NCBI GenBank assembly: GCA_032433595.1
Contig: JASWJB010000001.1
Coordinates: 124,001 to 188,000, forward strand
DNA from: Conoideocrella luteorostrata
Taxonomy: Eukaryota; Ascomycota; Sordariomycetes; Hypocreales; Clavicipitaceae
Direction of reading: 5' to 3'
Length of the DNA stretch: 64,000 nt
Under the pieces are notes generated by a model. It saw only the letters and a program-made list of their open reading frames with translations, did not search any database and had not been told where the DNA came from. How positions within the stretch are numbered: the first letter of the stretch is position 1; every line of letters starts with the position of its first letter. Positions 6,107 to 58,402 of the stretch are shown piece by piece. A program made the position numbers and the translations under genes.

Positions 6107-7241
6107 TCAAATGTTGACCTTCAAGGCAAATAACCCTCTCTCAATACAATTAATTACTACAGTGCCCGACTTAAACCATGCATATGTACTCCACGCACCA
6201 TAAAACGCGACTTCGGGCTCGTCGTCATCATCGGGCCAGCAGTCAAAATACGCCAACTCTTTCATATTACCACCGGTAGGATCGTTAGGCACGCCAGAGA
6301 CGTCAACTACTCTTAAGCCGGATGCATAGTTGGCCATGTAAGCTACATGGTTGACGATGTATAAATTATGATCAATGGCGTCGACCGGACTCTTGTACGT
6401 GCCCGTCATGTTGGGATGAGTTAGAGACGATATATCCCATATATACGTCGTGGTTTTGGTGTTGAGGCCTCTATGATCGCGTTGCTCCTCGTCCTGTTCG
6501 TCGTCCATGAGCATGTAGCGAAAATCGGAGTCGAGTTCCCAACCTTGATGGGTGAATGCTCCTTTGCCGTCGATTCCGTCATAGTAGTTATTGGACAGGA
6601 TCGTGGTGTTTTTCCTATCCGTAACGTCATAGACCATAAAGGAATGGATGTTAAAAGTAAGGCAGATCTCGCGTCCGTGGAATCGGCTATCCGGGCCACG
6701 ATATATAACACATCTCGCGTCGTGGACGTAGTCCCCTCCACCGAAACAGCCCGTAAGGGTTGGTCGGGCGGGGTCTTTGACATCCATCATGAGGAGGCCC
6801 TCTTTGAGGTCTTTACATGTAGCGTCTTTGGCGCCAGAGATGAAGATGGTGTTTGATTCGGGGTTGGCGATGACGTTGTGCGCGCTACCGAGCTGATTGA
6901 AGTGGGCGGTCAGGTCGGAGTGGATGTCGAAGACCTTTGGTTGTTTACACTTGAGGGAGAGGAGTTTGTTGAGGTCGAACACCTGAATGCCGTGGCCGGG
7001 GGACTCGGAGCTGATGTAGGCGTAGTGGTCGATGACTTTGATGTCTCGCCAGATCTCGTTGCCGGTTTGGGTGGGCAGGCGGCCGAGGAATACGAGACGG
7101 CCACCTTTTAGTACCTCTGCGAATGCCGTGCCGTCGGTTTGACCGACGATGGCGAACTCTCTGCCGTCGGGGGATGTCCAGCCTAAATGGAAGTTAGCAG
7201 TTGCGCAGGCGGTGGAGAGGATTGCAATATCCATGTGATGG

Positions 7242-7281
<40 letters not shown>

Positions 7282-18378: not shown

Positions 18379-18811
18379 ATGCTCTTCAAGGCCGTCATCC
18401 TCGCTTTCGCTGCCGTCGCAGCTGCTGTCCCTACCAACTGGGGCGACTCCAACGGCGACGATGGCCAGTCTGTCGGCGATGTCTGCGGCAACGGCAACAC
18501 CGTCCACTGCTGCAACGACGAGAGCGCCAAGAAGCTCACCAGCGGGGGCCTCATCCCCCTCACCGGCGACCTCCAGAACCTGCTTGGCCAGTGCAACGAC
18601 ATCACCGGCTCTGTCCTTGGTGGCGCCGCCGCCGTCAACCCTGCCTGCAGCCAGCAGGCTGTCTGCTGTGGCCAGACCGAGCAACACGTAAGATTCCCCG
18701 GGCCCCCATTTCTGAGAGCCATCCATCTACTTGCCTCCTTGGTTGCTTGTACTAATTTGTCTGTGATTGCAGGGTCTCGTCAACATTGGCTGCTTCCCTA
18801 TCAACGTGTAA
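18379..18811 (+). CDS. Class I hydrophobin (copy 2)
   Basis: Exons 18379-18687 and 18773-18811 join over an 85-bp intron to 115 residues. The signal peptide is about residues 1-17 (ending AAAVP). The eight cysteines have exactly the spacing of copy 1 (7, 26, 17, 5, 12 residues between cysteine groups), and the intron falls at the same codon, so the two genes are duplicates. Long stretches such as GDLQNLLGQC and VNPACSQQ are shared. The mature N-terminus differs, with an extra acidic run (DSNGDDGQS). As a secreted amphipathic coat protein it acts on the hyphal or spore surface. Confidence in the family is very high; division of labour between the copies is unknown. Confidence 0.94.
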
Positions 18812-20062
18812 GCGACGCGGGGTGGGGGATGTTTCACGACGAAAGATTCAAGCGTTATGAGTTGCATGAGATGCAGGAGTTTGGCACTTTAATTTCGGAC
18901 TGCATTTTCTCTTCTTCTGTGTATAGAGAACAGAACAGCTTCCTTGTTTTAATACATTTTTTTTTCTCGCATTGCTGCGTACACAAATTATTTTCAAGCA
19001 AATGAACGTCGATGGAGATGTCTGTGTCTGTGTTGTGCCTGTTTGTGACGTGATCGACTTCCATTGTCTGGGATATCACTATTGAACTATGAATCGAGTG
19101 CAAAAGCGCCCAGACACAACAATTTCGCTGGTTGAGCAGAATATTGAGATTGACTGTGTTCCGTGCACAGCCTCTCCTAACTCTCCTCTTGATCCTGTTC
19201 TTGGAGTGTATCTGGAGCAGTGACTGAATTAGTTTGTAGGCGCTGTGTTTCTCGGCCTGTTTTCTAGCTCAAGACATCCGAACGCATTGTTTCTAGTGCC
19301 TTGATTTGGATTTGGTAGTTGCGTGTGTTTGAGCTGTGGTGCCGAGCGCGCCAACAGCTGTCCAAGCCACCGTAGCAATCAACTAACGGTATGGTGGAAG
19401 GAGATAAAAGTGGTCCCAACTTGGCCAAGTTACCGTATGATTAATTAGTTAAACGCTCTTAAGAGGAGGTATCCGGACTTAACCGCCCAAAGTTGCCTGG
19501 ACTAAAATCGACACAAACGTCGAGGTGGGTATATGGTCCCTTAAGTCCGTGATCCCAATTGTTTCGTTTCCACAAAAAGTGGGAAAGGAGATGGGAGCAG
19601 GCTTTCCCACTTGACTACTCCATACGGATTGATGTGTGCAAGCCTGCACAAGGAGGCACAATTATAAATCAAGACGCGGAGAAGGAGTGCCGAGGAAATA
19701 AAGCCGACGAGTAAGCAGTACGTTTGGTCTGTGCCAGCCCACGCTGTCGGCGTTAAGCTCCCGGTCCAGAAGCTAGTTCCGTCGTGACATCAGACTTGGC
19801 TGAGATGCCGCGAGGCCCCCTCCTCATACGCAACAGATATTCTCATAGTCAATAAAGAAGGTGGCTTTCGGTAGATCGTAGCTGTGAGAATGCGTATAAA
19901 TATCCATGGCGCACCTGCCGTCGCTTGATTATACATTGAGGGCGTAGGATCAGATTACAACGGCCAACCAACACACTGACTGTAACGAGCAATTATAAGC
20001 TTGTGAACAAGAATCTGACAAACAGCACCTCCAGCCCAATCAAGTAGTACTCGCGTCGCGCC
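18812..20062. other. Intergenic with a potential hairpin
   Basis: No gene is seen in 1.25 kb. An imperfect inverted repeat around 19472-19548 (CGGACTTAA facing TTAAGTCCG, with a nested TCGAC/GTCGA pair) could form a cruciform or hairpin. A TATA box of the next gene lies at 19895. Confidence 0.45.
19895..19902 (+). promoter_or_regulatory. TATA box of the aldo/keto reductase gene
   Basis: TATAAATA 168 bp before the ATG at 20063, in the same relative place as in the hydrophobin genes. Confidence 0.6.
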
Positions 20063-23553: not shown

Positions 23554-26500
23554 CTACCTGTGGGATGTACGATGACGATCCCCTTGTGATGGTGCGGAAA
23601 GGCCGGACCTTGAGCCAATGCCACCCGCATTAACGTCAGCGCAGTGGCTTAGTAAAAGCTGCACAATTGCCTCGTGGCCATTCGCTGAAGTAGTCTCAAG
23701 CGCAGAGCTATAGTTGTTGTCGCGGGCATTAACGTCGGCGCCGTGGTCTAGCAAAAGCCGCACAATTGCCTCGTGGCTATATAATGAAGCAAGCTTGAGC
23801 GCAGAGGTATATTTATCGCGGGCATTAACGTCGGCGCCGTGGTCTAGCAAAAGCCGCACAATTGCCTCGTGGCCACGCGCTGAAGCGGCCTCAAGCGCAG
23901 AGCTATAGTTGCCGTGGGCATTAACGTCGGCGCCGTGGTCTAGCAAAAGCCGCACAATTGCCTCGTGGCCACGCGCTGAAGCGGCCTCAAGCGCAGAGCT
24001 ATAGTTGCCATGGGCATTAACGTCGGCGCCGTGGTCTAGCAAAAGCCGCACAATTGCCTCGTGGCCACGCGTTGAAGCAAGCTGAAGCGCAGGCTCATAG
24101 TCGCCACAGGCATTAACGTTAGCGCCGTGGTCTAGCAAAAGCCGCATAATTGCCTCGTGGCCATTCTCTGAAGCAAGCTGAAGCGCAGACTCATAGTCGC
24201 TACAGGCATTAACGTCGGCGCCGTGGTCTAGCAAAAGCCGCACAATTGCCTCGTGGCCATTCTCTGAAGCAGCCTGAAGCGCAGACTCATAGTTATCACG
24301 GGCATTAACGTCGGCGCCGTGGTCTAGCAAAAGCCGCACAATTGCCTCGTGGCTAGCCATTGAAGCAAGCTGAAGCGCAGACTCATAGTTGCCACAGGCA
24401 TTAACGTTAGCGCCGTGGTCTAGCAAAAGCCGCACAATTGCCTCGTGGCCACGCGCTGAAGCGGCCTCAAGCGCAGAGCTATAGTTGCCGTGGGCATTAA
24501 CGTCGGCGCCGTGGTCTAGCAAAAGCCGCACAATTGCCTCGTGGCCACGCGTTGAAGCAGCCTCAAGCGCAGAACCATAGTGGTTACTCGCATTAACATT
24601 CGCACCATCGCATACTAGCCTCTTCGCTGTGTTTTCAAGGCCTTCAAGGCATGCAAAATAAAGGGGTGACGCTTGAGGTCTACCTGGATTCTCATCCCAC
24701 GATCTATGAGGATCATACAGCCTAGCCCAGACCCGAAACTTAGGTTCATCCTGGAGGAACTTTACGACTGCCTCTAGAGTTGATCTTGATTGTTCGGCAT
24801 GTTTGGCATGGCCCATCCAGATCTCTGCTGCGCGCTTGGCTAATGGGTATCGCGACCGTAAATCCTTAATATCTTCTGCATTATTATCCGCATGTATGCT
24901 CCCAAGATAGATTAAGCATATATCCGTAATAGTTATCTTGGGATTGGGGAAGCCGTTGATGTTAGGAACAACGAGATACTCTTTGACTGAGAAATGAGCC
25001 AGCTGCAGCTCGAGTCCTCCGCGTTCCTCTGAAGCTTGTACGAGCGAGACCAGGCTAGAGCAGTAACCTGTAATTTCTTCAGGACATGGCAATCGATCGT
25101 TTGCGTCAAAATAACCTGCTTCAAAACGCTTCTCATTAAGACGAACCGCGATGACGTCTACGGCCTCTTCAAGAGCCAAGGGTCGCTCTGAGTGGGCGAG
25201 GAATTGTAGCAGGTGGATGGCCTTCCTTTTTCGTTTTTCAGGGATATTCTCGAGAATACTTTTATATGTCGCATTCAAATCTGGTGGCAGGGATTCAAGT
25301 GCATCCTCTAGTTCCTCACGATTGAAGCATTCTGCCAGGGTGTCCAGTTGACAGGCTGCCCACATGAACCTAAAAATATTTTGTTAATGAGAAGCAAATC
25401 AGCATTTGGCGAGGATTCGAAAGACTAACATGCCATTGGCTTTCTCGCTGACTTTCTCTCTGACCCGCTCTAGCACGTCTGGTGATGTGGCCCACCTCTT
25501 GAATTCTAGGCCATCCAGTCTAGCGTTGACATAACAGCGAATATCGTCATTTACTAACACCTTGCTAAGAGGAAGGCAGTTGGCTGGACCAACCCAGCCA
25601 TGAAGATTGCGCTCGAACCCGTCCTCTAATCGGCTAGTAACTAAGAATTGAACATCCGAGAGGGTAGGGATATACTCCTCCATCCATTTCAACAGCTCCC
25701 TTCTCTGTGAGCACTCATCTAGAGCATCCAACAGGATAACGAGTTTCCCGGAAGGCTGCACGACAGCCTGCAACATATTTTCGAGGCATGCAGATAGCAA
25801 ATCTGTGTCTGGTTGCCTTTTCCCACAGTCATGGGTCGTGAATAGACCGTCAAGATGCTTTTGGGACTCTTGGCGCGCACCATAGAGTTGGAAGGCGATG
25901 GAGTGCAACATGTCGTCTAGCTTCTGCTTCCTGGTATCGGTAAAGTTGAAGAAGAAGAAGAGTGTTACGTAATTTGCCATCTGTGTAAGGTGGTCCAAAA
26001 TGGTGGAGGTGAGGACGGTCTTGCCACATCCTGGTATGCCGTAGAGCCATAAATGTCGACGCGAGCCATGCTTCCACTCGGTAAAGGGGTCGCTCCGAAG
26101 AAACCAGGTCCCAGTTCCAGCATACCGAGACTTTCTCGCGTTGTTAGCATCGGTGGAGGGGTCCGCGGGTGACAGCCAGCGCTCGATGCTCACAACACGG
26201 CTATCAATTATCATCGCGTGTACGTTGGTCTTGATTTTATGTGATTCTTGCTGCAAATGGGCTAGGTCTCTTTGCACTGAAAAGGAAAGGTCAGAATAGC
26301 CGCCATTAAGTTTGGGCTACTTACTTTCGCTCATCACTTCACTGATTTTCCTCTCCGATTCGACCTTGTTCGGCGGGATCTGGAGTAAAAGATCTTTTGC
26401 GTACGCGGCAGCAGCCATGGCTGCATAACCCTGCCACTCTTTGTTCTTGTGCGAGTCGGCATAGTCGCAGATACCACGTATCACTAGGCACGGGAAGTGG

Positions 26501-27318
26501 TCCATTAGCCCTGCTGCCTCCATCTCGAAGCACTGGACACCCTTCTCGACCGCCAGCTTGTCCCGGACCCGCGCATCTTTCATCAGCGTGTTGGCCGATG
26601 CAATCAACCCGTAGTGGATGGTGAGGTTGTCTTCGCCCGCATCTTGGTCTCGTCGATGCCGCAACACCAAGGTACAAGGGTCATCCCCGCAACCGTTGAT
26701 GCAGTCTGCATCCTGGACACGGTGCGTGAAATCAGATTTGTACAGTCTGTCGCTGTCGGCAGGCGGTCGAGAGTACTTTTGCCGAAGCCGAACCTTCTTC
26801 TGCAGTACCTCAGTGATCTCTTTCTCCAGCTGGTGGCCGTCTGACTCGTATCTGGTTTCCAGTCCGGCGATTGCTGTGAGCACTACTAGAGGTGGCTTGG
26901 TTGTGGTTCCTATTTCGAGAAGTGCCTGATCCTGTATTGCCTTGTTGAAGTCATACTGTATCACGCCTGTCTTCCCGTCGCCCGGGCAGCTGACCACGAC
27001 ATCGCCGAGTCGGACATCGTGTTGAGGACTTGGAGCGCCGCCCCCAATTCCCACCATAAGTCCGATTCGGATATTGGGAAAGGTATGTAGCATGTCTTTT
27101 GCGACAGAGGTGGCATTAACGAGGCCATACTCCCCACGCGGCAAGACGGCGATAACCACGTTGTGACTCCCGATTCTTCCTAGCGCATAAGAATTGTTAT
27201 CGTGCTGAGCGACCTCCGCTGGCGGGCTGTGTCTCTCGTCGAGGAAGGCTTGCACGGCGACGGATTCGGTTCTAAGAGCGCAGATGCATCCGATTGTGTA
27301 GTTCTGAGGATTCGACAT
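23554..27318 (-). CDS. NLR-type STAND receptor: PNP_UDP_1 - NACHT - ankyrin repeats
   Basis: Exons 27318-26325, 26276-25430 and 25369-23554 (introns 48 and 60 bp) join to 1218 residues. The ATG at 27318 is chosen; the longer frame has no earlier ATG. Residues about 8-315 are a nucleoside-phosphorylase-like domain (YTIGCICALRTE, VGIGGGAPS, CFEMEAAGLM, VIRGICDYADSHKN). Residues about 360-620 are a NACHT NTPase with Walker A GIPGCGKT at about 411-418 and Walker B LVILLDALDE; the exon 2/3 splice restores the usual ANGMF-MWAACQLD motif. From about 850 to 1195 there are eleven ankyrin repeats, ten of which are nearly identical. In fungi this architecture belongs to receptors implicated in non-self recognition and programmed cell death; the PNP domain is the presumed effector and the ankyrins the sensor. 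Ligand unknown. Confidence 0.92.
23627..24600 (-). repeat. Homogenised 96-bp ankyrin-coding tandem array
   Basis: The block beginning GCATTAACG recurs on the plus strand at 23627, 23726, 23822, 23918, 24014, 24110, 24206, 24302, 24398, 24494 and 24590. The step is 96 bp throughout except the first interval, 99 bp, which contains one extra Asn codon. The units encode 32 residues with an almost invariant core (HEAIVRLLLDHGADVNA) and a few variable positions after VNA and before HEAI. The 24590 end is the most diverged unit. Confidence 0.95.
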
Positions 27319-35739: not shown

Positions 35740-38655
35740 TTATACGGTTTGGTCCATCTGTGGACGAGGTTTGCCTTTTGAGAACGCTGGCCGCTCGGGA
35801 TCCTGTAACCTCGCCAACTCTAGCAGTAAGCGATACACATATACACTCATGTCGACATTCCTCAAGGCTTGTGAGAACCACTCTCTTCCCTGGTCTGCGA
35901 TTTCCTTCGCCCTCTGCTGCCCTTGTTTTGTCGAGGTCAAATACATGACCAACTCAGGGAGCTCCGTCATGCCAAGGCTAACGGGGATAAAATGCACCCA
36001 TGGCAAAAGGCGATCGTCGTGCCATTCGCGAAGTAGAGTTTGCTTCATCGGCGCCGACTTGGAGGCCACCATTTTATACCATCGGCCACTGATACCGTTT
36101 CCGTCGAGGTCAAATGTCAGTCTTGATCGGAGGGCTTCATCCTTATCTGCCCATGACTTCATACGATAGGCAAATGACTGTTCACGACATGGCCTTGTGG
36201 CGCACTGGAAGATTTTCGTAAAGGCAACGTCAAATAACCTGCTGTTGAGAAACGATGATGTCACACGCTGAACAATACCGCCTTTGTCGGCAAGATATAG
36301 GTGCTCTTTGCCATCTAACATTTGTACTAGGCTGACAAATCGCTGCCGGTGGTAATCTTCCCATTGAGAGTCCGTAGCAAAAGCACCTGATGTAGAGCCG
36401 GCCCAGTAAACATTGTTCGTTTTACTCGACCAGTCCAAGTCTTTGTTGTCGCTGTACACAAACTCAGACTCTATGTATGCGGGGCTCGGAAATAGAATAT
36501 CGCCCATGGTAGACGGTGATCCAGTGGAAAGCACAGGAACCATGCCCTCAATCAGCCGGAAAGAAGTCGGGCTTATAAACAGGCCATGCATTTGGCGGTA
36601 GCTGGGATGTTTGCAGATATCCCTGGAGGAAGATATGTTTTGAACCCAAGGCAGATCAAACGAGTTGACTGCGTTGTCCGAGTTGGCAGCAGTTGTGTGC
36701 TCATTTTCGCTGCAATACTGCACCAGAGAGGCCCACGTTGGCGTTCGCGATAAGTCTTTTAATCTGACGCTGGGTTTGGGGTCATATTGTTCCTGCTTCC
36801 CCGGAAACATGACTCTTGGTTCATCCAAATGATTGACCAAAAACTCCACGTCAGGTAGGACTCCCTTGATATCGCCCATGAGCTGTGCAAACAATTTGCT
36901 TAAATGCCTATCAAAACTGCGCCAGTTATGAATGCAATCCGTTTTGCCCGTCCGGCCAGAGAATTTACATGTCCAGACCTCGTTTTCCGGAGAGAGCTGC
37001 ACAGCTCTCATAGCCTGACGAATTTGTTCGCCACTAAGGCTCCATAAAGGAGTGATTGATTCGTACATGACGTCGAAATCGTCGATGATTTTTGAATCGT
37101 GGGCATTGGCATACTTGAACCACTCATCAAAGCCAGGTGGAGGATCCAATTCGTATCTCCGGCGATATTCCTCGCAGGCGATCGTGTACGATTTGGACTG
37201 GCGGAGCAGCAAATGATTGAAGTCGGCCTTTGCTTGTTGAATAATCGTCTCGACGGGATGTTCGTGTGTATTTGCAAAGATGACGGTTCTTAGGTGGGCA
37301 GTTCGAATGGCAAACATATTTGCTAGGTAAGGGAGAACAGGAATGACCATCAGAGCCCACAAGAGCTTTCGGTGGGAGACTTGCTTGGGAATCAGCGAGA
37401 TCAGTTGCCCTAGTGTTAAGCTAGAGCAAACAATATGGGAGAGAGCCTGCATCTCAGATGACTGTATGAACGGGCTGCGCGTGGCGAAGATGACGAAAAT
37501 TTTGATGACCGCTGCTGCAGTCCAGGACAAATGGTGAGCCTAGAGATATTAAAATAGAGTCTACAAAGCGGGAGCGAGACAGGACGAACTGTTTCTATGA
37601 CAAAATACCAGGAGGCGGCTCTTGCGACACTGGCCAGCAGCATCGTGCCAAGATCAAACGGGACAAATCCGAGCAGAAGCGACCGAAGTACCAGCGCCGC
37701 CAGCATAACACTAGCGACTCGCGGAGTCAGCGACGCAACATCGGTCTCCATATTGACAAAAGGTATGGCCACAGAGTTTGATGCCTGCTTTCGGAGGAGA
37801 GTGCCGTAGAGAGCTAGCAAAGCAAGAAGCTCAACAACGGACAAAGCCAAGCTTGGCAAGTTCCATTGAGCCAGCGTATGAATGCCAAGCAAAGAAATGG
37901 CCGCCGCACTCCATGTCGTGGTGGTCGCGTGGCTTGTCCATGCCTTCGGTTGTTTTATTCTTGATGTCGAATGTTGGGGATTCGGCTGCTTCTGGATCAA
38001 AAGCAAGGCAGGCGTCAATGCAGGCTGCCAACAGTCAGTATGAATTCGCAGGACACGGTCAAAAATCATGCAGCCTCACCAGTAGAGGCCCAACGAAATC
38101 ATTCTCGGCAGAGCAAAGCGCTGCAGCAGCTGTGGCCACAGCGACAATCCAGTAGGCACCTGTCCTGGGCTCGGCTTCAGGTTGCAGCGACAAATCCACG
38201 GCCTTGGCTCTTGTTCTCGGCCGGATGTTATACGTGATGAAGAAGAATAGCAAGATCCAGCCAAGTGTCTCGGACTCAAGCTGGGAAGATCTGGAGGCTG
38301 TCCAGTACTGGGTCGCGGCGGCGGTGAGCACGCTTTTCGCAATTGACGGCACGATGCGACCGGTTTCAGCTTCCCACATCTTTTGGCGCGATTCGCGAGA
38401 GGACGAGATCGGGACGCAAGCTTCAGAGGGGAGGGAGGGGCCGTCTGGCTTATCACTCGAGGCGCCAATTGTTTGTTCTATCTGATTGCGTCGAAAAGGG
38501 GTTAGAACATGGCGTACGGAGTAACTACGTAGTACTAGCCCTCCGACCCATGTAACCTGAAATCCGTGCCCCGCTGGAACGCTGAAGATGCGCCCATGCG
38601 GCACTGGCGTAGACAGCGGGCGTACAGAGGAGCGAAAACCCCCTTCTCTCCTCAT
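35740..38655 (-). CDS. CAP10/GT90-type membrane glycosyltransferase
   Basis: Exons 38655-38080, 38024-37590 and 37539-35740 (introns 55 and 50 bp) join to 936 residues. The N-terminal roughly 370 residues hold several hydrophobic segments (for example WILLFFFITYNI, YWIVAVATAAAAL, LALSVVELLALLALYG), so the enzyme is membrane-bound, probably in the Golgi. The C-terminal domain has the GT90/CAP10 signature: DLDWSSKTNNVYWAGSTSG, then RFVSLVQ, and near the end LTFDLDGNGISGRWYKMVASKSAPMKQ followed by WVHFIPVSLGMTELPELV. Cryptococcus CAP10 and its relatives are beta-1,2-xylosyltransferases; the sugar used here is inferred. The second donor, GTTCGT, is unusual but restores the only workable frame. 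The start ATG is uncertain: a probable LTR lies just upstream. Confidence 0.82.
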
Positions 38656-39761: not shown

Positions 39762-42700
39762 ATGGCTTCGGGGGAGAAGGTCAAGGTGTACCGGCTTCAA
39801 GGAATCCCATCCGATCTTCAGAATGCAGACGAGGTCGCTTGGTACCTGTCGGAGAACTGCCCAGAACTGACCGAATACGACATTAAAATATGCTCTCTCG
39901 CCAGGGCCTTGACCTCGGCAGCCCCGTTGCCTTGGGTAGCCACGGTGATGTTTCACCCTCAAAAATCTATCGATGGTGATTTAATTCGTTCACTGCCAGT
40001 GAAACTAGCAGAAGCCGTATCTAAGATTCATGATGGACTCAATATTGACGATCATTTTCTTGGCTTGACACCATTCAACGACGTCAGACCTGATGACTAT
40101 GAATACGAGTAAGCACTAGGATTCCACTTGCTTCTTCTGCCCTTCCCTCGCGACTGTCTGACAGAAAATCTTTTAGCTGTGTAGCTGTATCTGGTATCGG
40201 CAGCCATCCATTTGGGTCCTGGCAGCCCCATGATGGTGATAAACTGTTCATGTGGATCAGAGACATTCTACCCAAGCTTTTCCCATCCACCAGGGCAATG
40301 ATATATGGGTATGACACGGAACTCTCCAACACGCATTCGTTCCAGCAGATTCAGGATCTTGCCATCTCCTTTATTGACCACTTGCGGGTGGTGTTCGAGT
40401 CTTCGGCAACTCGGCGGTCCATCATCTTAATTGGGCACAGTCTCGGCGGCATCGTTGTCAAACAGGCGCTGGTCATGCTTGCTGACAGTTTCCATCCTGC
40501 AGATCAGTCGCTTCTCAGGGCGATAACGGGAGCCGTCTTTTTCGGGGTCCCCAACCACGGCATGATGATTTCTCATCTGCTCGCGCTGGCCTCTAGACAG
40601 CCCAACAACTTTATGATTGAACAGATCGGAGTGAATGCACCCTTTCTGACTCGACTAGAAAATAAATTTGCATGGTGGTCGCGGGAAGGAGAGTGCTTCA
40701 GTCAGAAGAACTTCTTCTGGGGTTATGAAACCCAGGAATCGGCTATCCCTGTAGTAGGTTCCTAGACTTGATACACACGCGGCGTAGCTACCATCCAGAA
40801 ACTAATGATCCAAAATAGCACAACCCTGCTGACGGGAAGTGGACAGCAAGACATCCGAATGCTCCCTGGCTGAAACTTGTGGAGCGTGATTCTGCAACGC
40901 GAGGCTTGTGGAAAGACCCCAGCAAACGCCATTTCACTTTCCAGGTCAACAAAGACCACTCTAGTATGGTCAAGTTTGTGAATGCCTATGACCCCAACCT
41001 AACTGTAGTCATCAGGAAGTTGAGCGAGTTATTCGAATGTCCTCTGCCGGATAAACTCATGTCAAGTGCTGCTCACCTCCAATTCGGAGGACAATCGACC
41101 GCCGACTTTGCTACAGAGCTGTCTGCGACGCCATCCTCCTCAATGACATCAGAACCACCTGGCGAGCGCGCTAAGACCTTCAAACTACCTTTAGAAAGCC
41201 TTAACATACCAGAGATATCCTCCTTACATAGCAAGGACTCCGAGCTGGCAGCGCTTGCCCAAATCTTGGACGGAGACGCTACCAACAGTCGTCTAGCCGC
41301 ATCGGTTTATGGAGCCCCAGGCATTGGCAAGACGCAGCTCATCGCACACTACGTAAAGAACCATCGAGACGCATACGATAATGTCTTCTATATCGACGGT
41401 TCCAATCTCATCCGTATTCGCTTGACCCTTCGGAGAGAAGTCAACCGCATCAAACAAACCTGGTCTCAATTCTTCAGCGCTCTTCGATCCCGGGATACGC
41501 ATTCCTCCGACATCGAGCGCTTCTGTAATTTTTTGAACAGCAAGGGAAATACCAAGTGGCTTCTGGTCATAGATGAGATGCAAGACTCTCCTTGGATCAC
41601 CGTTATCTTCGACCAGCTGAAGCAAGGCACTGTTATTCTTGCGTCGACGAGCTCTCAGTTCAAGGAGAGATTTCCTGCCGTACGAGTAGCCCAATTGAGT
41701 CCTGATGCGGGCAATCAGTTACTTCTCAATCTAGGACCTGGTTCAATTGCAAAAACGAGTAAGCAGTTCTTTGGCGTGACCATTGGGGAAGCTGCGTAGA
41801 GGTCATTGACAGTGATCCATAGACCACCACGAATTGCTGTCACGATTGGATTGCCACCCCATACTTATACGTCTAGCGGCCCCAAAGCTCATGGGATTCA
41901 AGACTTTATCGGTTTTTCTTAGGCACTGGCGGGACGGCGAGATGGAACTTCCCACTCAGAGCTTCAGCAGGTTGAATCGCATCCTAGAGTTCGAGTTTGG
42001 CGAAGCCATACCTGCATCTCAGATGGACGTTCTGAATATCTGCCTCCTCTTTGACTATAAGGCGATGTCATACGACTTTCTCGAGTACCTTGGCATCTCA
42101 GGTTTGGAATCGTTTTTCGGTAACACTATCGAGCGTCTCGCGCGGCACAGTCTCATCGAGACGAGGCTTCCAGACCGCCAATCTGTCACATTTAGCTTGT
42201 CTGAGCTTCTCTACCAGTTCCTTAGGCAGTCTGCTACCGTCTGGCATTCTGTTGTGCGTAGGGCTGCCAGTCTGTTAGCGGAGAAAGTGCCGAGAAGCCA
42301 CAAGGACAACTATCGCGAGCGCATCGAGCTCCTAGCACCGCACGCGGTCATGTTCTCCAAATATATTCACACCACCCAGAAGTCCGTTACGGGCTCGGCT
42401 GAGTTTCTTGACAACCTCGAACGTATCGCTTCTCTGCTCCGATTGCTAGACAAAGATGTCGATGCCATCAAACTGTATGGCCTCATCCACCAAGAAAACG
42501 CAAAGCTGCCGAGTTCCATGCAGCTCACGCCTTTGCGAACGGCGGAAGTTTACAATAACATGGGCCTGTCCTGCATGAATGAAGGCGACATGAAGCTTGC
42601 TCATTCTTGTTTCGAGAAAGCAGCGCACGCATTACCGACGAAGGAGAGCCCGGAGACGAGGTTGCAGATCATTGCTAACACAGCTCGATCTCTGATGGAG

Positions 42701-43621
42701 ATGGAAGAGTACGCCACTGCAGTGATCCTTTTATCAGCGACCCTGGAGAGCAACCAATCCACGGACAAGGTCCTGCTTGTACCTCTGCAGCATGCTTTGG
42801 GCTTTACGCATGTACAACTGGGTCGCGCCGACCTTGGGATTCCTCTATTGGAAGAGTGCCGCTCAGTGAGCGAGTCTGAACACCAGCGGGTTGGAAAGCG
42901 GGTAATATTCACAATTATGCATGACCTTGCCACTGCGTGGCGCGACCAGAAGAAATGGGATGACGCAATAATCCTGTACGAAAAGGTAAAGGAATGCCGA
43001 GAGAGCTTTCATGGACACACTCATCGCTACACCATGGAGACTGCCGGAGCACTAGCCGTAGCGTACCAAGGGAGTGGTCAGTTAGTCCAGGCGGCGGTAT
43101 GCTTTAAGAAAGCCTTAAAGTGGCAGTGTGAGAGACTCCGTCTAAACCACCCGGATACGCTCCAAACCCTTCAAAACTATGGCATATATCTCAGTATGAC
43201 GGGAGATCTGGAAGGCGCAAAGAAAGCACTGCACCTGGCTCACACGGGCTGGGTAGACCAGGACAGGAAGATCAAGAAGATGACATGGAATCGAATCAAC
43301 TCGGGGGTCAGCTTGGCGTTGGTACTGCAGGACCTCGCGGACTTCAACGAAGCCGAAAGGCTCTACCGCACGGCTTTGAAGTGGTACCGAGAGCCAAAGG
43401 TGAAAGAGAATCCTAGAATGACCTACCGGTACTCCAAAACCGTCTACTTGTCTGGAAGGATGTACGAGATTGCGGGACGAGCGTGCCTAGCACGCATGAG
43501 ATATGAAGAAGCCACAAACGTGTCCATGGCCGACAATGATGAGGCTAGCTACTGGAAGTGTCTCTCTATTAGGGCAATGCACAACCTCAAACCGGCAGAG
43601 GGCAAGGTTGAAAGCTTTTAA
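39762..43621 (+). CDS. STAND receptor: lipase/esterase-like - NB-ARC - TPR
   Basis: Four exons (39762-40108, 40177-40753, 40819-41758, 41823-43621; introns 68, 65 and 64 bp) join to 1220 residues. After a 115-residue N-terminal region of unknown kind comes an alpha/beta-hydrolase domain beginning VAVSGIGSHPFGSW, with the nucleophile motif GHSLGG (Ser at about 204). The NB-ARC/P-loop domain has Walker A GAPGIGKT at about 473-480 and Walker B LLVIDE at about 556-561. From about 780 to 1150 there are TPR-like helical repeats (AEVYNNMGLSCMNEGD, DDAIILYEKVKE, HPDTLQTLQNYGIYL, NEAERLYRTALKWY), typical of the kinesin-light-chain-like TPR in fungal receptors. The presumed logic is a TPR sensor, an NTPase switch and a lipase-like effector acting on membranes. 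Intact in frame. Ligand and partners unknown. Confidence 0.9.
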
Positions 43622-45633: not shown

Positions 45634-47455
45634 CTTTACCAGATGTTATGCTAATGTTGATCTTTTGGAGAACCTGTTGCTCTGGTCGCAATGGGTAGGA
45701 AAAATGCACATTTTCGAATACTATTTCCATTCCTCTTAAGTCCTCGGTGGCGGGATCAAGTTGAAAGTCAGCATCATCCTCACCGCTAGAAGAAATGCGA
45801 TCTCGGCGTAGTCGGAAGATGTAGGAAATTGCAGTGCTGGCCTTTGAGATATTGGTTGTGTGCTGAAACGATATTGCCGCAGCTTCACTAGAGAAAACAA
45901 CCGAAAGGTAGACAGTGTAAACCTGACTGGATGTGTACTCGGCTGCGGATACGAGCTTTCCACCGTATCAGAAACCAAACCCCATGGCAAGCATGGAGAC
46001 CGACTGACTGACTGAGTAGAAAAAATCTTATAGCCCAGACTTTTAACAGCATGGCGTACAATGCCTTGAAGACTTTTCTTGTATCGTTCGACAACGGTCC
46101 GTTCCAGAGCAAGCGAAGATATCGTGCGGATACCCATCACAGCTTCAGAGGCCATAGCATTACTCGTTGCATATCGCTCAACAGTGTCTTCCTTAAACTT
46201 GGATTCAAGTCGGATGCGCATGTACCCTGACCCTACGATAACGGGCAGGGTTCCACAGGTAAGGGCAAGTCCTAGTTTCCAGCCGTAGATAATAGCGAGG
46301 ACGTAGCTAGAGATAAGATTAACTACGCAAATAAGAATATGGGATATGTTTATAGGTAAGAGCTCTTGTAGGCTGGTTGGCTCTGATGCCAGTCTTGACA
46401 CAAGAGCACCTGTCCCGTTCTCAGGCTCATCAAAAAACGACATGTCTTGTTGAAGGGTGCTACTGAAGACGTCGCCGCAGTAGATCTCCATTACATTTCT
46501 TAGTGAATTAATTAGTCAGGGAAGCCAAGTATGATAAGGAGCCTGAAATGAGAGCCCGCATACCTGAGCAACAATGTTGGATAGCCAGTCGATAATAGAG
46601 TATACAGCCAAGTTACCAAGCGCAACAACGAAGAACATCAAAGCAATAGAGTTCGTCTTGGTTACATCGGTTGTTTCGTAAGCTTCCAAGGACTTCGATA
46701 GCAACACTGCTAAAGCTGGGTACGTGATTCCTGTGGAAATTTGTGCTTAGTGAACAACGAAAACAACAATTACTGGTCATCTTACCTCCAGCCAGACAGC
46801 ACATGAAGATGATAGAAGATGGCCTCCATAGCACCCTTTGTTCTCCCATGATCGAGGAAAGTCTATAGAGTAAACCATGCATATGAGCGAGATCTCCAGG
46901 GTTATTTCTATCGCTGTTGTGGCTTGAACCGCTGTTAATTCCGAACGTGAAGTCGTGTACTGCCTCCTTCTCTGACTGTCTTTTTCATTGTCGGAGGTGA
47001 CTTCGATTGAGAAAGACTTCTTCCTAAGATCTTGTGCCATAACGAGTCTAAAATAAATACCCCTGAGACTAATCAGCTCATCGTATGTACCATTTTCGAT
47101 TATTTTTCTCTGAGCCATGATAACAATATTATCAGCATGCCTGGCGGTGGATAATCTGTGCGCAATGACAATCATAGTGCGACCCTTGGTGACGTTATTT
47201 AGAACCGCTTGCACCGCTTCCTCGGCTCTGGGATCCAAAGAGCTAGTTGTCTCATCTACTAGCAGCACTTTTAGGTCAGAAATAATGCTACGAGCAATAG
47301 AAACGCGCTGCTTCTGACCACCAGACAATGAAGCACCTCGTTCACCAATCCAGGTCTTATAGCCATTTGGAAGATTGGTGATAAAATCATGGGCAAAAGC
47401 TGTCTTGCATGCTTTGATGACAAGAGCTTCGGGAGTTTTTGGGGTTACTGATCAC
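45634..47455 (-). pseudogene. ABCB-type (MDR) multidrug transporter pseudogene
   Basis: The fragment starts in the middle of nucleotide-binding domain 1. It reads AHDFITNLPNGYKTW, LSGGQKQRVSIARSI, VLLVDETTSSLD (Walker B and D-loop) and AHRLSTARHADNI (H-loop). It continues through transmembrane domain 2 (MSFFDEPENGTGALVSRLASEP; VMGIRTISSLALE) and ends after VFENVHFSYPLRPEQQVL, the first strand of domain 2. Walker A of domain 1, all of domain 1's membrane half and the rest of domain 2 are missing. Lesions inside include a TGA where the family has Trp (GF-W-YGG), an in-frame TGA near 46509-46512, and a frameshift near a CAGTCAGTCAG repeat at about 46000-46015. Two introns are still recognisable. 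It cannot make a transporter. Confidence 0.85.
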
Positions 47456-48226: not shown

Positions 48227-49433
48227 CTAGCGGCGGACAGCCTGAAAGTCATCAAGCTCCTGAAACGATCGCTTCTTCGTCCGCTTGCGAAACATAATGC
48301 CAAAGGTTAAGATACATGCAATCTTAGCAAGGAGTGACCTGTCATCGACGTCCTCTGTGTCCGTTATTTCAGTCTCTCCATCTGATGACAAGTGAACGTT
48401 TGAGCTACTAGGTAGAGAACGACCGGGATGCCAGATGTTCCATATGACTGAGTTGATGAGCATGAGGCTAGCTTCGAAAATGTAGAAGTACACCTCGTAA
48501 CGTAATATGGGACTCAAAGCCTCGAGGTGTGTCAGATCGGTGATATCCACCGTCGTATTTCCCGCATGTTCCACCAGTCGATAGATGCAGCGTGCCAAAA
48601 TCAGCGCCATGCTGACATACAGCACGACGAGAGTAGTGAATACAACCTTGACGTGCAGGTCGGCCTTTTTGCAACGCAGGTGGAAGACACCGGCGAGCAT
48701 GACAAAGATGACAATGACGACAAGTTGAATTACCAGCGCAGCTATTGTTAGGTTGCTGCCCATCTTCTGCTGATCAGTATCCGCTGATGGGTTAGAGCTC
48801 AAAGCCACTCCTACAGCGTTCAAGGCTTCGACAAGTGCCATCAAGCCACCGAACGTGGCCAAAACTCTTCCAGGAGGCATAGGAGCAAAATATGGTACAT
48901 AGTAGAGCACCCGGCCGAGGACATGGTAGTTGGCTAGCTCGAGGAGAGGGCTTTGCGTCGCAACGGGGCAAGGATTAGTTTAGAAGATAATCTAGCTTTC
49001 CATATGGGAAGTATTTTACTTACGGGCATATAAATATAAAAACTTGGCTGAGTATATATAGAATAAGGTTCCGGTCACTATACAGATAGTTAAAAGATCC
49101 ATATTCCCGCAGAGCATAACCGGCAGTGAACAAGATGGCGCAAAGCGGATGCAGTCCGACTAGCTTGAAACTTTTATATTTACTGGTTCCGAAAGTAAGC
49201 CAAGGCTTGGTTCGTCTACGACGGACGTGAATAAAATGAGGCCACTCACATGCACTGCCAGACATGGCCGATCGCTGAGAGACCGAATGCGACGGCGAAG
49301 AATACGGGTGCGGCTCGGTTAGGGGCATAGACATAAAGACTTCCTAAAACTTTGAAAATCGTTAATACTTGGATTTTTTTCACAAGGGAGATTCAAGGGG
49401 TTAGGAATACTTACCAGGCTGTCCGCTTTCCAT
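48227..49433 (-). CDS. RTA1-like seven-TM lipid-translocating protein
   Basis: Exons 49433-49415, 49343-49250, 49182-49024 and 48950-48227 (introns 71, 67 and 73 bp) join to 331 residues. The splice-restored N-terminus reads SLYVYAPNRAAPVFFAVAF and HVWQC. Next come GLHPLCAILFTAGYALREYG and LLELANYHVLGRVLYYVPYFAP, the hallmark of the fungal RTA1 (RTM1/RSB1) family, with seven hydrophobic helices in all. The C-terminal 60 residues are cytosolic, acidic then basic. Family members move or sense sphingoid bases and other lipids and confer resistance to toxic lipophiles. A longer frame begins at ATG 49637 but its extra sequence is unlike the family, so 49433 is preferred. Confidence 0.85.
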
Positions 49434-57256: not shown

Positions 57257-58402
57257 ATGGAGCAAAACACTTTGAAAAGACGAGGTGTAGGCCTCATTGG
57301 AGTCGATGCACAAACTTCCTTCGGAGGCTATACACTCTTCTGCCCGTTGACTAGCGACACGGCGCATCTTGTTGACATCAACGGCAAAGAAGTCCACGCG
57401 TGGAAGCTGCCTGGAAGAATTGGTCGACACGCCAGAATCATGCCCAATGGAAATCTCGCCGTCAATACATTGCGCCAATCGCCGGAACAGAAAACCCAGA
57501 ATGGCGGGCCTTTCCCGTTTCCCTTCTTCAACAAATACGGGGGTGGAGTAATGAGCGAGCTCGACGTTAATAGCAACGTGGTTCGTCAATTCACCGATCC
57601 TTTTGGTCACCATGACCAATATCACTTAGGCAACGGCAGCATCTTGTATGCTAGTCTGGAGGCCCTTTCGCGGGAACAATCTGCACAAGTCATTGGCGGA
57701 GTACCTGGCTCTGAAATTGATGGCATTACCTATGCGGACATGATCAATGAAGTCGATGCCAATGGCAACTTAGTCTGGCAATGGAAAGTTTCTGAGCGTT
57801 TGCCGCGTGATGAGTTCCCTCTTCAGCCACATTATACTCGTGAGCACTATCCACTCATCAACTCCGTCCTGCCTCTTCGCGACGGCAAACATATCCTTGC
57901 TTCCATGCGTTCAGTATCGGCAGTCATCATCATTGAAAAGTCCACCGGCAACATCGTATGGAAACTCAGCTCGGACATCCTCGCGCAACAGCACAATGCT
58001 ACAGAGTTAGAAAATGGTAATATTCTCATCTTTGACAATGGAACTTTTCGAAAGGGCGAGTCAATGACATATACGCGCGCAATTGAAGTTGATCGTGAGA
58101 CCAAGAAAATTGTATGGGAGTATCGTGACCGCTCATCCCCAATTTGCTTCTTTACTCCCTTCATGGGAAGCGCCCAGAGATTGGCAAATGGAAACACATT
58201 AATGTGCGAGAGCGCTTTTGGGCGCATTTTTGAGGTTACGCGAGACGGATACATATGCTGGGAATTCGTTAATCCTCACTTTGCGGCGTATCCTGATGAC
58301 GAGACAGCCAAGATTTTCCCAGGGGAGTCTAATGCTCTGTTCAGGGCATATAGGTATTCGCTGGAGGAGATACCCTGGCTGAAGGCGAAATTAGACAAGT
58401 GA
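57257..58402 (+). CDS. Arylsulfotransferase-like (ASST-type) beta-propeller protein
   Basis: An intronless 381-residue frame from ATG 57257. Repeated blade motifs with Asn-Gly-Asn turns recur (RIMPNGNLAVN, HLGNGSILYAS, DANGNLVWQW, ELENGNILIFDNG, RLANGNTLMCE), each followed by a W-type strand. This is the pattern of the arylsulfotransferase (ASST) propeller family. The run QQHNATELENGN holds a His in the position of an active-site-like HD/HN motif. No signal peptide is evident, unlike bacterial ASST, which is periplasmic. Bacterial members move sulfate between phenolic esters; fungal members are little studied. It is flanked by a Dal5-type transporter (divergent) and a Zn2Cys6 regulator (convergent, 36 bp between stops). 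Confidence 0.8.
   Translation: MEQNTLKRRGVGLIGVDAQTSFGGYTLFCPLTSDTAHLVDINGKEVHAWKLPGRIGRHARIMPNGNLAVNTLRQSPEQKTQNGGPFPFPFFNKYGGGVMSELDVNSNVVRQFTDPFGHHDQYHLGNGSILYASLEALSREQSAQVIGGVPGSEIDGITYADMINEVDANGNLVWQWKVSERLPRDEFPLQPHYTREHYPLINSVLPLRDGKHILASMRSVSAVIIIEKSTGNIVWKLSSDILAQQHNATELENGNILIFDNGTFRKGESMTYTRAIEVDRETKKIVWEYRDRSSPICFFTPFMGSAQRLANGNTLMCESAFGRIFEVTRDGYICWEFVNPHFAAYPDDETAKIFPGESNALFRAYRYSLEEIPWLKAKLDK

Follow-up and report, generated by a model that had tools for sequence, protein, structure and literature searches.

A recently homogenised ankyrin array of unusual 32-residue period in a PNP_UDP/NACHT/ANK receptor gene of Conoideocrella luteorostrata

The C-terminal part of a gene of Conoideocrella luteorostrata consists of ten consecutive ankyrin units with a largely invariant core. 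The gene lies in contig 1 of a 620-contig assembly with a total of 46,424,744 bases, within a stretch of 64,000 nucleotides that was analysed as a whole and is called the window in the following. According to the splice model the host gene of the array (27318..23554, minus strand) has three exons separated by GT..AG introns (Table 1) and encodes a protein of 1218 residues. In a protein database search this protein was matched by QQS21_000047 of Conoideocrella luteorostrata with 100% identity and coverage; no literature on the gene was found in the titles and abstract openings searched.

A sequence-only reading of this DNA had assigned the array to an NLR-type receptor, and this was borne out by Pfam, with all domains above their cut-offs: PNP_UDP_1 (PF01048; residues 8-296, 31.2 bits versus a cut-off of 25.1), NPHP3_N (residues 385-547, 143.5 versus 24.8), NACHT (residues 406-548, 34.5 versus 26.7) and the C-terminal ankyrin repeats (PF00023, 203.9 bits). 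The gene is a fungal NLR (STAND) receptor of the PNP_UDP/NACHT/ANK class, carrying all three domains of that class. It fits the class as described by Dyrka et al. and therefore belongs to an already known kind. The PF01048 piece of this gene scored 23.5, below the cut-off, in a six-frame search of the genome, which returned 50 PF01048 matches at E <=0.001 (6 of them below the cut-off), to be counted as exon pieces and not as genes. The C-terminal tail, GGIGSRSGLSAPSQGDRHRTSHR, may conceivably be a decayed final ankyrin unit, judged by its letters.

Table 1. Positions in the window of the exons of the receptor gene and of the parts of its ankyrin array.
Feature	Position	Strand	Description	Basis
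Exon 1	26325..27318	-	Start codon and PNP_UDP (nucleoside phosphorylase/nucleosidase-like) domain, residues 8-296	Splice model, Pfam PF01048, public protein match
Exon 2	25430..26276	-	NACHT/NPHP3_N NTPase; Walker A GIPGCGKT, Walker B LDALDEC	
Exon 3	23554..25369	-	End of nucleotide-binding module, helical linker, ankyrin array, short tail, stop	
Ankyrin array	23626..24588	-	Ten units, nine of 96 bp and one of 99 bp	TRF, in-frame reading
Unit 1	24493..24588	-	Starts SNHYGSALEAASTRG	
142-bp block, first copy	24410..24551	-	Crosses a unit border; part of units 1 and 2	
142-bp block, second copy	23834..23975	-	Part of units 7 and 8	
Units 8 and 7	23821..24012	-	One nucleotide apart	
Unit 10	23626..23724	-	99 bp/33 aa; most divergent unit, of the length standard in the family	
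C-terminal tail	23554..23625	-	GGIGSRSGLSAPSQGDRHRTSHR and stop; candidate decayed unit	Sequence, inference

The window holds further genes of note. A second NLR-type gene lies 13 kb away (40250-43621, plus strand), where neighbouring open frames encode a PGAP1/Abhydrolase_6 alpha/beta-hydrolase-like N-terminus, an NB-ARC-like ATPase and TPR repeats; it is perhaps a sesB-like/NB-ARC/TPR receptor, and TRF reported no tandem array in it. Elsewhere we observed a hydrophobin-like open frame (18379-19005, plus strand; PF01185, 27.5 bits, cut-off 23), 15 consecutive TGA triplets of the plus strand (7236-7280), which read as poly-His on the minus strand within an open frame that matches an LVIVD repeat, and open frames for a Glycosyltransferase 90 (35740-37530, minus strand), pieces of an ABC transporter (45736-47328, minus strand), an RTA1-like protein (48227-48910, minus strand) and an arylsulfotransferase-like protein (57257-58402, plus strand).

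The motifs of the effector and switch domains are widely kept. Among the 120 listed family proteins, the RGICDYAD-type motif is present in all and the FEMEA-type motif in 116, the window protein included in both cases; the Walker A motif is retained in 115 and Walker B, in its strict form, in 76, and an N-terminal A...E..A motif is found in 110 with a loose pattern and in 24 with a tighter one. The region with the FEMEA and ICDYAD motifs aligns weakly with MTA/SAH nucleosidases of known structure (best E 4.9e-05; four distinct nucleosidase sequences at E <=0.01), and the catalytic acids of the nucleosidase fold are presumably among the aligned residues. Against a cut-off of 169, the NCBIfam model for MTA/SAH nucleosidase, PRK05584, reached no more than 58.9 bits. 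None of the 13 NCBIfam models that matched the protein, bacterial ankyrin models included, passed its cut-off; these matches are put down to general similarity among ankyrin repeats or, where the model is of a nucleosidase, to the PNP domain.

At 23619-24581 TRF placed a 96-bp unit in 10.0 copies. Read in frame on the minus strand between successive VNA motifs, the array has ten consecutive units, of which nine measure 96 bp/32 aa and the last 99 bp/33 aa; both this and the variants HGNYSS, RDNYES, CGNYES and CSDYES had been claimed from the sequence and are all present. The units had also been called near-identical, which holds for the core and for some pairs but not overall, as mean pairwise identity is 85.8% for nucleotides and 76.2% for amino acids (minima 77% and 59%). 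Units 7 and 8 differ by 1 nucleotide and units 2 and 8 by 2, while units 9 and 10 carry private codons. Twelve of the 32 codons (4, 7, 12, 16-19, 22, 24, 26, 30 and 31) are identical at the DNA level in all ten units. Three or more residue types occur at eight positions (1, 2, 3, 5, 9, 10, 13 and 14) and two types at another eight (6, 11, 15, 20, 21, 25, 27 and 29), where the rarer type is confined to one or two units each.

Dyrka et al. (2014) reserved their class of highly conserved repeats for those that share more than 85% identity along 100 aa or more. Amino acid identity to the consensus is 86.3% for units 1-8 (256 aa), 84.7% for units 1-9 and 83.4% for units 1-10, and the corresponding pairwise means are 79.9%, 78.3% and 76.2%. 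By these figures the 85% level is passed against the consensus by units 1-8, whereas all ten units and the pairwise means stay below it. TRF also gave a period of 288 bp. Mean differences at lags 1 to 7 were 11.9, 13.6, 13.6, 16.3, 12.6, 10.2 and 16.7; since there is no clear minimum at lag three, a fixed three-unit tandem order was rejected and none is claimed.

Are the units alike because the protein is constrained, or because their DNA has been exchanged? Silent sites were compared over the last 28 codons of each unit in five arrays, the window's included, out of 12 loci entered; the four others come from 20 ankyrin stretches fetched from the genome, in 4 of which the motif reader recovered at least four units. 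These stretches were fetched because most of the loci L003-L031 ended short of their ankyrin part. Within the window array pS was 0.08, compared with 0.75-0.92 to the four other arrays, while pN was 0.13 within and 0.26-0.33 to the same arrays. The four other arrays had pS of 0.13-0.34 within and 0.40-0.85 between them; two of the six pairs were clearly lower (0.40 and 0.43), and arrays are thus not always saturated against each other at silent sites. Purifying selection on a shared scaffold, together with codon bias, might keep units alike with no need of exchange, and the core is indeed conserved at the protein level across the family, as judged from its consensus. Selection on the protein alone would not, however, hold silent sites uniform, and the contrast between 0.08 and 0.75-0.92 largely refutes this explanation; a long exact repeat that crosses a unit border also speaks against it, and we regard it as very improbable. 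Recent homogenisation is the reading that the silent sites support.

This longest exact repeat measures 142 bp (24410-24551 = 23834-23975). When codons were shuffled among units within each column, the longest repeat averaged 60.0 bp, with a maximum of 94, and 142 bp was reached in none of 2000 permutations; a chance origin of the block is excluded. Units were further compared over their last 28 residues in the 81 of 120 family proteins with at least five readable units (39 proteins with fewer were left out), 856 units in all. The nearest unit lay within the same array for all ten units of the window protein, and within the same protein for 67.5% of the 856 units, versus 1.4% in 20 shuffles of the labels. 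A DNA search of the 46.4-Mb assembly, of a type that can miss common words, returned a single match, the array itself. This search shows no exchange with other loci, and to that extent exchange has stayed inside the locus. Together, these data support recent homogenisation of the array by exchange between its units. The exchange that the sequence-only reading had proposed is to that extent upheld by the silent sites and the border-crossing block. It is recent, as the single nucleotide between units 7 and 8 shows, but to call it ongoing goes beyond the data.

An array of this kind may be partly a product of assembly, namely a truly homogeneous array of which the number, the order and some types of units were made by short reads. 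The published genome of the species, strain ARSEF 14590, was assembled with SPAdes from 2x150-bp Illumina reads (PMC12352038), and SPAdes assemblies of similar receptors are stated mostly to omit or create repeats (PMC12222747). Between 23554 and 24700, 80 different 77-mers and 16 different 127-mers are repeated, and none of 150 bases; the 142-bp repeat is just shorter than one read. Against such an origin, neither the gene nor the window contains an N, the frame is unbroken throughout the array, units 9 and 10 have their private codons, and the low silent divergence is independent of unit order; moreover, the assembly analysed (46.42 Mb, 620 contigs) may be another than the published one (47.39 Mb, 864 scaffolds). 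We consider a partial artefact possible, though the less probable case. With short-read assembly and repeated k-mers, unit number and order are nevertheless provisional, and the unit-by-unit reading of such arrays in short-read assemblies is unsafe. The silent-site result is less sensitive to assembly error than these two.

Next we consider where the units differ. The exon 3 frame (23554-25365), modelled with AlphaFold2 from 38 sequences, had a mean pLDDT of 88.0, with 79-98 in blocks of ten over the ankyrin part, and the best structural matches in the PDB were DARPins and ankyrins, the first being 6mol_A. In modelled unit 1 the inner helix spans positions 7-14 and the outer helix positions 17-25; some units have an inner helix that is shorter by one residue. 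The eight hypervariable positions are confined to residues 1-15 of the 32 (one-sided p 0.0006 for random placement, with a boundary picked post hoc); each belongs to the hairpin loop or to the inner helix, and the outer helix has none of them. The claim that variation is limited to surface positions does not strictly hold, given that one or two units differ at each of positions 20, 21, 25, 27 and 29, but variation is concentrated on what the model supports as the likely contact face, the hairpin and inner helix.

For the ten units together dN/dS was 1.26. The whole-unit pN/pS, bootstrapped over codons, had a median of 1.23 and an interval of 0.70-2.50 that includes 1, with 23.7% of replicates at or below 1, so that positive selection on the variable codons is only suggested. 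Among the five arrays compared in the genome, pN exceeded pS in the window array only. In the variable codons pS was also high (0.32), and part of the variation may therefore be locally relaxed or hypermutated. Transition and transversion allelic pairs were nearly equal at variable sites (31 and 25). One RIP index, TA/AT, was 1.14 for the array and 0.76 for both gene and window, and the other was 1.50, 1.35 and 1.25, respectively. As the two indices point different ways and transitions about equal transversions, RIP is not claimed as a source of the variation.

The same data bear on a simpler history, in which one 32-residue unit recently expanded in tandem and the copies are now decaying, with neither continuing exchange nor selection on a binding face. 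The near-copies among units 2, 7 and 8 would agree with this, as would a pN/pS not significantly above 1. Yet the recent block copies (2, 7 and 8) stand alongside more divergent variants with an identical core, dN/dS is 0.57 in the core versus 1.51 in the nine variable codons (picked after inspection), the variation is concentrated on one face, and relatives show the same likeness within arrays. We therefore hold expansion with decay to be unlikely, and homogenisation of the scaffold by exchange remains the preferred reading.

The period of the array is itself informative. Among the best 119 of 6846 protein matches (own protein excluded), 18 were not counted, having fewer than three units that could be read; of the 101 others, 99 had a modal unit of 33 residues and two of 34, and only 11 of their 929 units had 32. 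Among 114 further proteins, the best listed of 7926 matches to the ankyrin part alone, 26 were unreadable and 3 of 88 had a mode of 32, one of them tied with 33; internal identity in these three was 0.56-0.64. A homogenised 32-residue period is thus an unusual feature of the window array. The sequence-only reading had set the 32-residue units against the usual 33 and described the 99-bp unit as carrying an added Asn codon. The first part stands for nine units, but unit 10 is better read as having kept the family length, since 99 of the 101 readable relatives have 33 residues; its two AAC codons could still be a fresh duplication.

On the simplest reading, a hairpin codon would have been lost in one unit and the short form then copied through the array, with the last unit spared. 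We tentatively propose, at somewhat short of even odds, that one ancestral unit of 33 residues suffered a one-codon deletion in its hairpin and that unequal exchange spread this form to all units but the last, giving a homogenised 32-residue sensor in which the shorter hairpin may shift the binding face. If true, the deletion sweep would be a natural marker of the extent and speed of conversion in an NLR array; the 32-residue period serves as a marker for tracing exchange.

How exceptional is the array within its genome and family? TRF found tandem arrays of 96-102 bp in 19 of the 20 ankyrin stretches fetched by match to the window protein, with a period of 99 bp in 15 and of 102 bp only in four. 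Neighbouring copies at 96-102 bp matched at 67-89% in the fetched stretches and at 87% in the window, a value equalled by L046 and surpassed by L044 (89%). The window array is therefore at the homogeneous end of this range. Within the family, by contrast, 29 of the 81 proteins compared rank above it in internal identity, which puts it only at place 30. The emphasis that ordinary ankyrin arrays diverge does not hold here, tandem ankyrin arrays being frequent in the genome and homogeneous ones known in fungal NLRs (PMC4986451).

Larger arrays were observed in the same genome: L044 (C181:43500-46500) has 13.5 copies at 89% matches, L049 (C83:99000-102500) has 20.3 copies at 81% and L037 (C228:34000-38000) has 17.5 copies at 85%. 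In L033 (C89:52900-56500), a 96-bp tandem of 3.4 copies at 83% matches (872-1201) lies beside a 99-bp array; it is the only other 96-bp period among the 20 fetched stretches.

The closest listed relative is from Ilyonectria sp. P0013 (64% over 91%); among the 120 listed proteins no near-identical second protein was found, the other relatives being at most 64% identical. Like the window gene, those of Ilyonectria sp. P0013, Trichoderma P0042, Fusarium P0006 and Colletotrichum P0004 are PNP-NACHT-ANK, but their units are mostly of 33 and some of 34 residues, and of other sequence. When relatives were paired at 90% identity or more over at least 500 of the first 800 residues, 65 of 66 pairs differed in total length, three of the 66 by a multiple of 33 (198, 132 and 33 residues); unit counts by the strict motif are lower bounds. 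These lengths hint at repeat-number polymorphism, to which short-read assembly may contribute. P0082 and P0093 of Fusarium oxysporum f. sp. raphani have identical first 800 residues and differ by 33 in length, which would fit one ankyrin unit or else two assemblies of one strain.

We consider it probable, at roughly 80%, that the gene is a fungal NLR whose array is homogenised in its scaffold by exchange and varied in hairpin and inner helix. Such a receptor would sense through its ankyrin solenoid and be switched by its NACHT NTPase, with the N-terminal PNP_UDP domain as effector. Unequal exchange or gene conversion within the locus would overwrite blocks of units and so make the scaffold codons uniform, while hairpin and inner-helix codons differ among units, and reshuffling of units could create new binding faces. 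By analogy with the family, the array would bind a protein ligand on its concave face, binding would lead to NACHT assembly, and the PNP domain might then act as a nucleosidase, for example by depletion of ATP or dATP, with growth arrest or cell death following non-self recognition.

PNP_UDP was described in bacteria as an immune ATP nucleosidase (PMC10197012). The window protein has a domain of the same family as these effectors of bacterial defence systems and keeps the motifs that align with nucleosidases; by analogy its PNP domain might cleave ATP or dATP. Closest in architecture are Pa_2_8180 and Pa_3_8560 of Podospora anserina, likewise PNP_UDP/NACHT/ANK, whose repeat number is polymorphic among isolates, as Dyrka et al. 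(2014) state (PMC4986451). The same study puts the share of ANK repeats with high internal conservation in fungal NLRs at 10%, and reports that Podospora ankyrin repeat numbers range from 7 to more than 16, that 33-34 residues are typical of an ANK unit, that varied positions map to inner helices and hairpin loops, and that the hairpin/inner-helix face holds, with one exception, the sites that are selected and polymorphic in one ankyrin NLR of Podospora (PMC4986451). The window gene shares the three-part architecture, the homogeneous repeats and the variable inner helices and hairpin; it differs in its homogenised unit of 32 versus 33-34 residues, and is known from one sequence.

The HNWD genes het-d, het-e and het-r of Podospora likewise encode NLRs whose repeat sensor evolves in concert and has a few hypervariable positions (PMC12222747), but this sensor is of WD40 and not ankyrin repeats, and the N-terminal domain is HET and not PNP_UDP (PMC4986451). 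For het-d and het-e the ligand, HET-C, is known. The array extends a known regime, in which the scaffold is homogenised and the contact face varied, to a clavicipitaceous insect pathogen with many ankyrin arrays, and the silent-site contrast offers a simple test that is workable from one genome.

The best fold match of the array is to DARPins and designed ankyrins, in which hairpin and inner-helix positions are varied on a fixed scaffold of 33-residue units, position 26 among those varied. The natural array and the designed ones share the fixed scaffold and the varied hairpin and inner-helix positions, whereas the window array has an invariant His at position 26.
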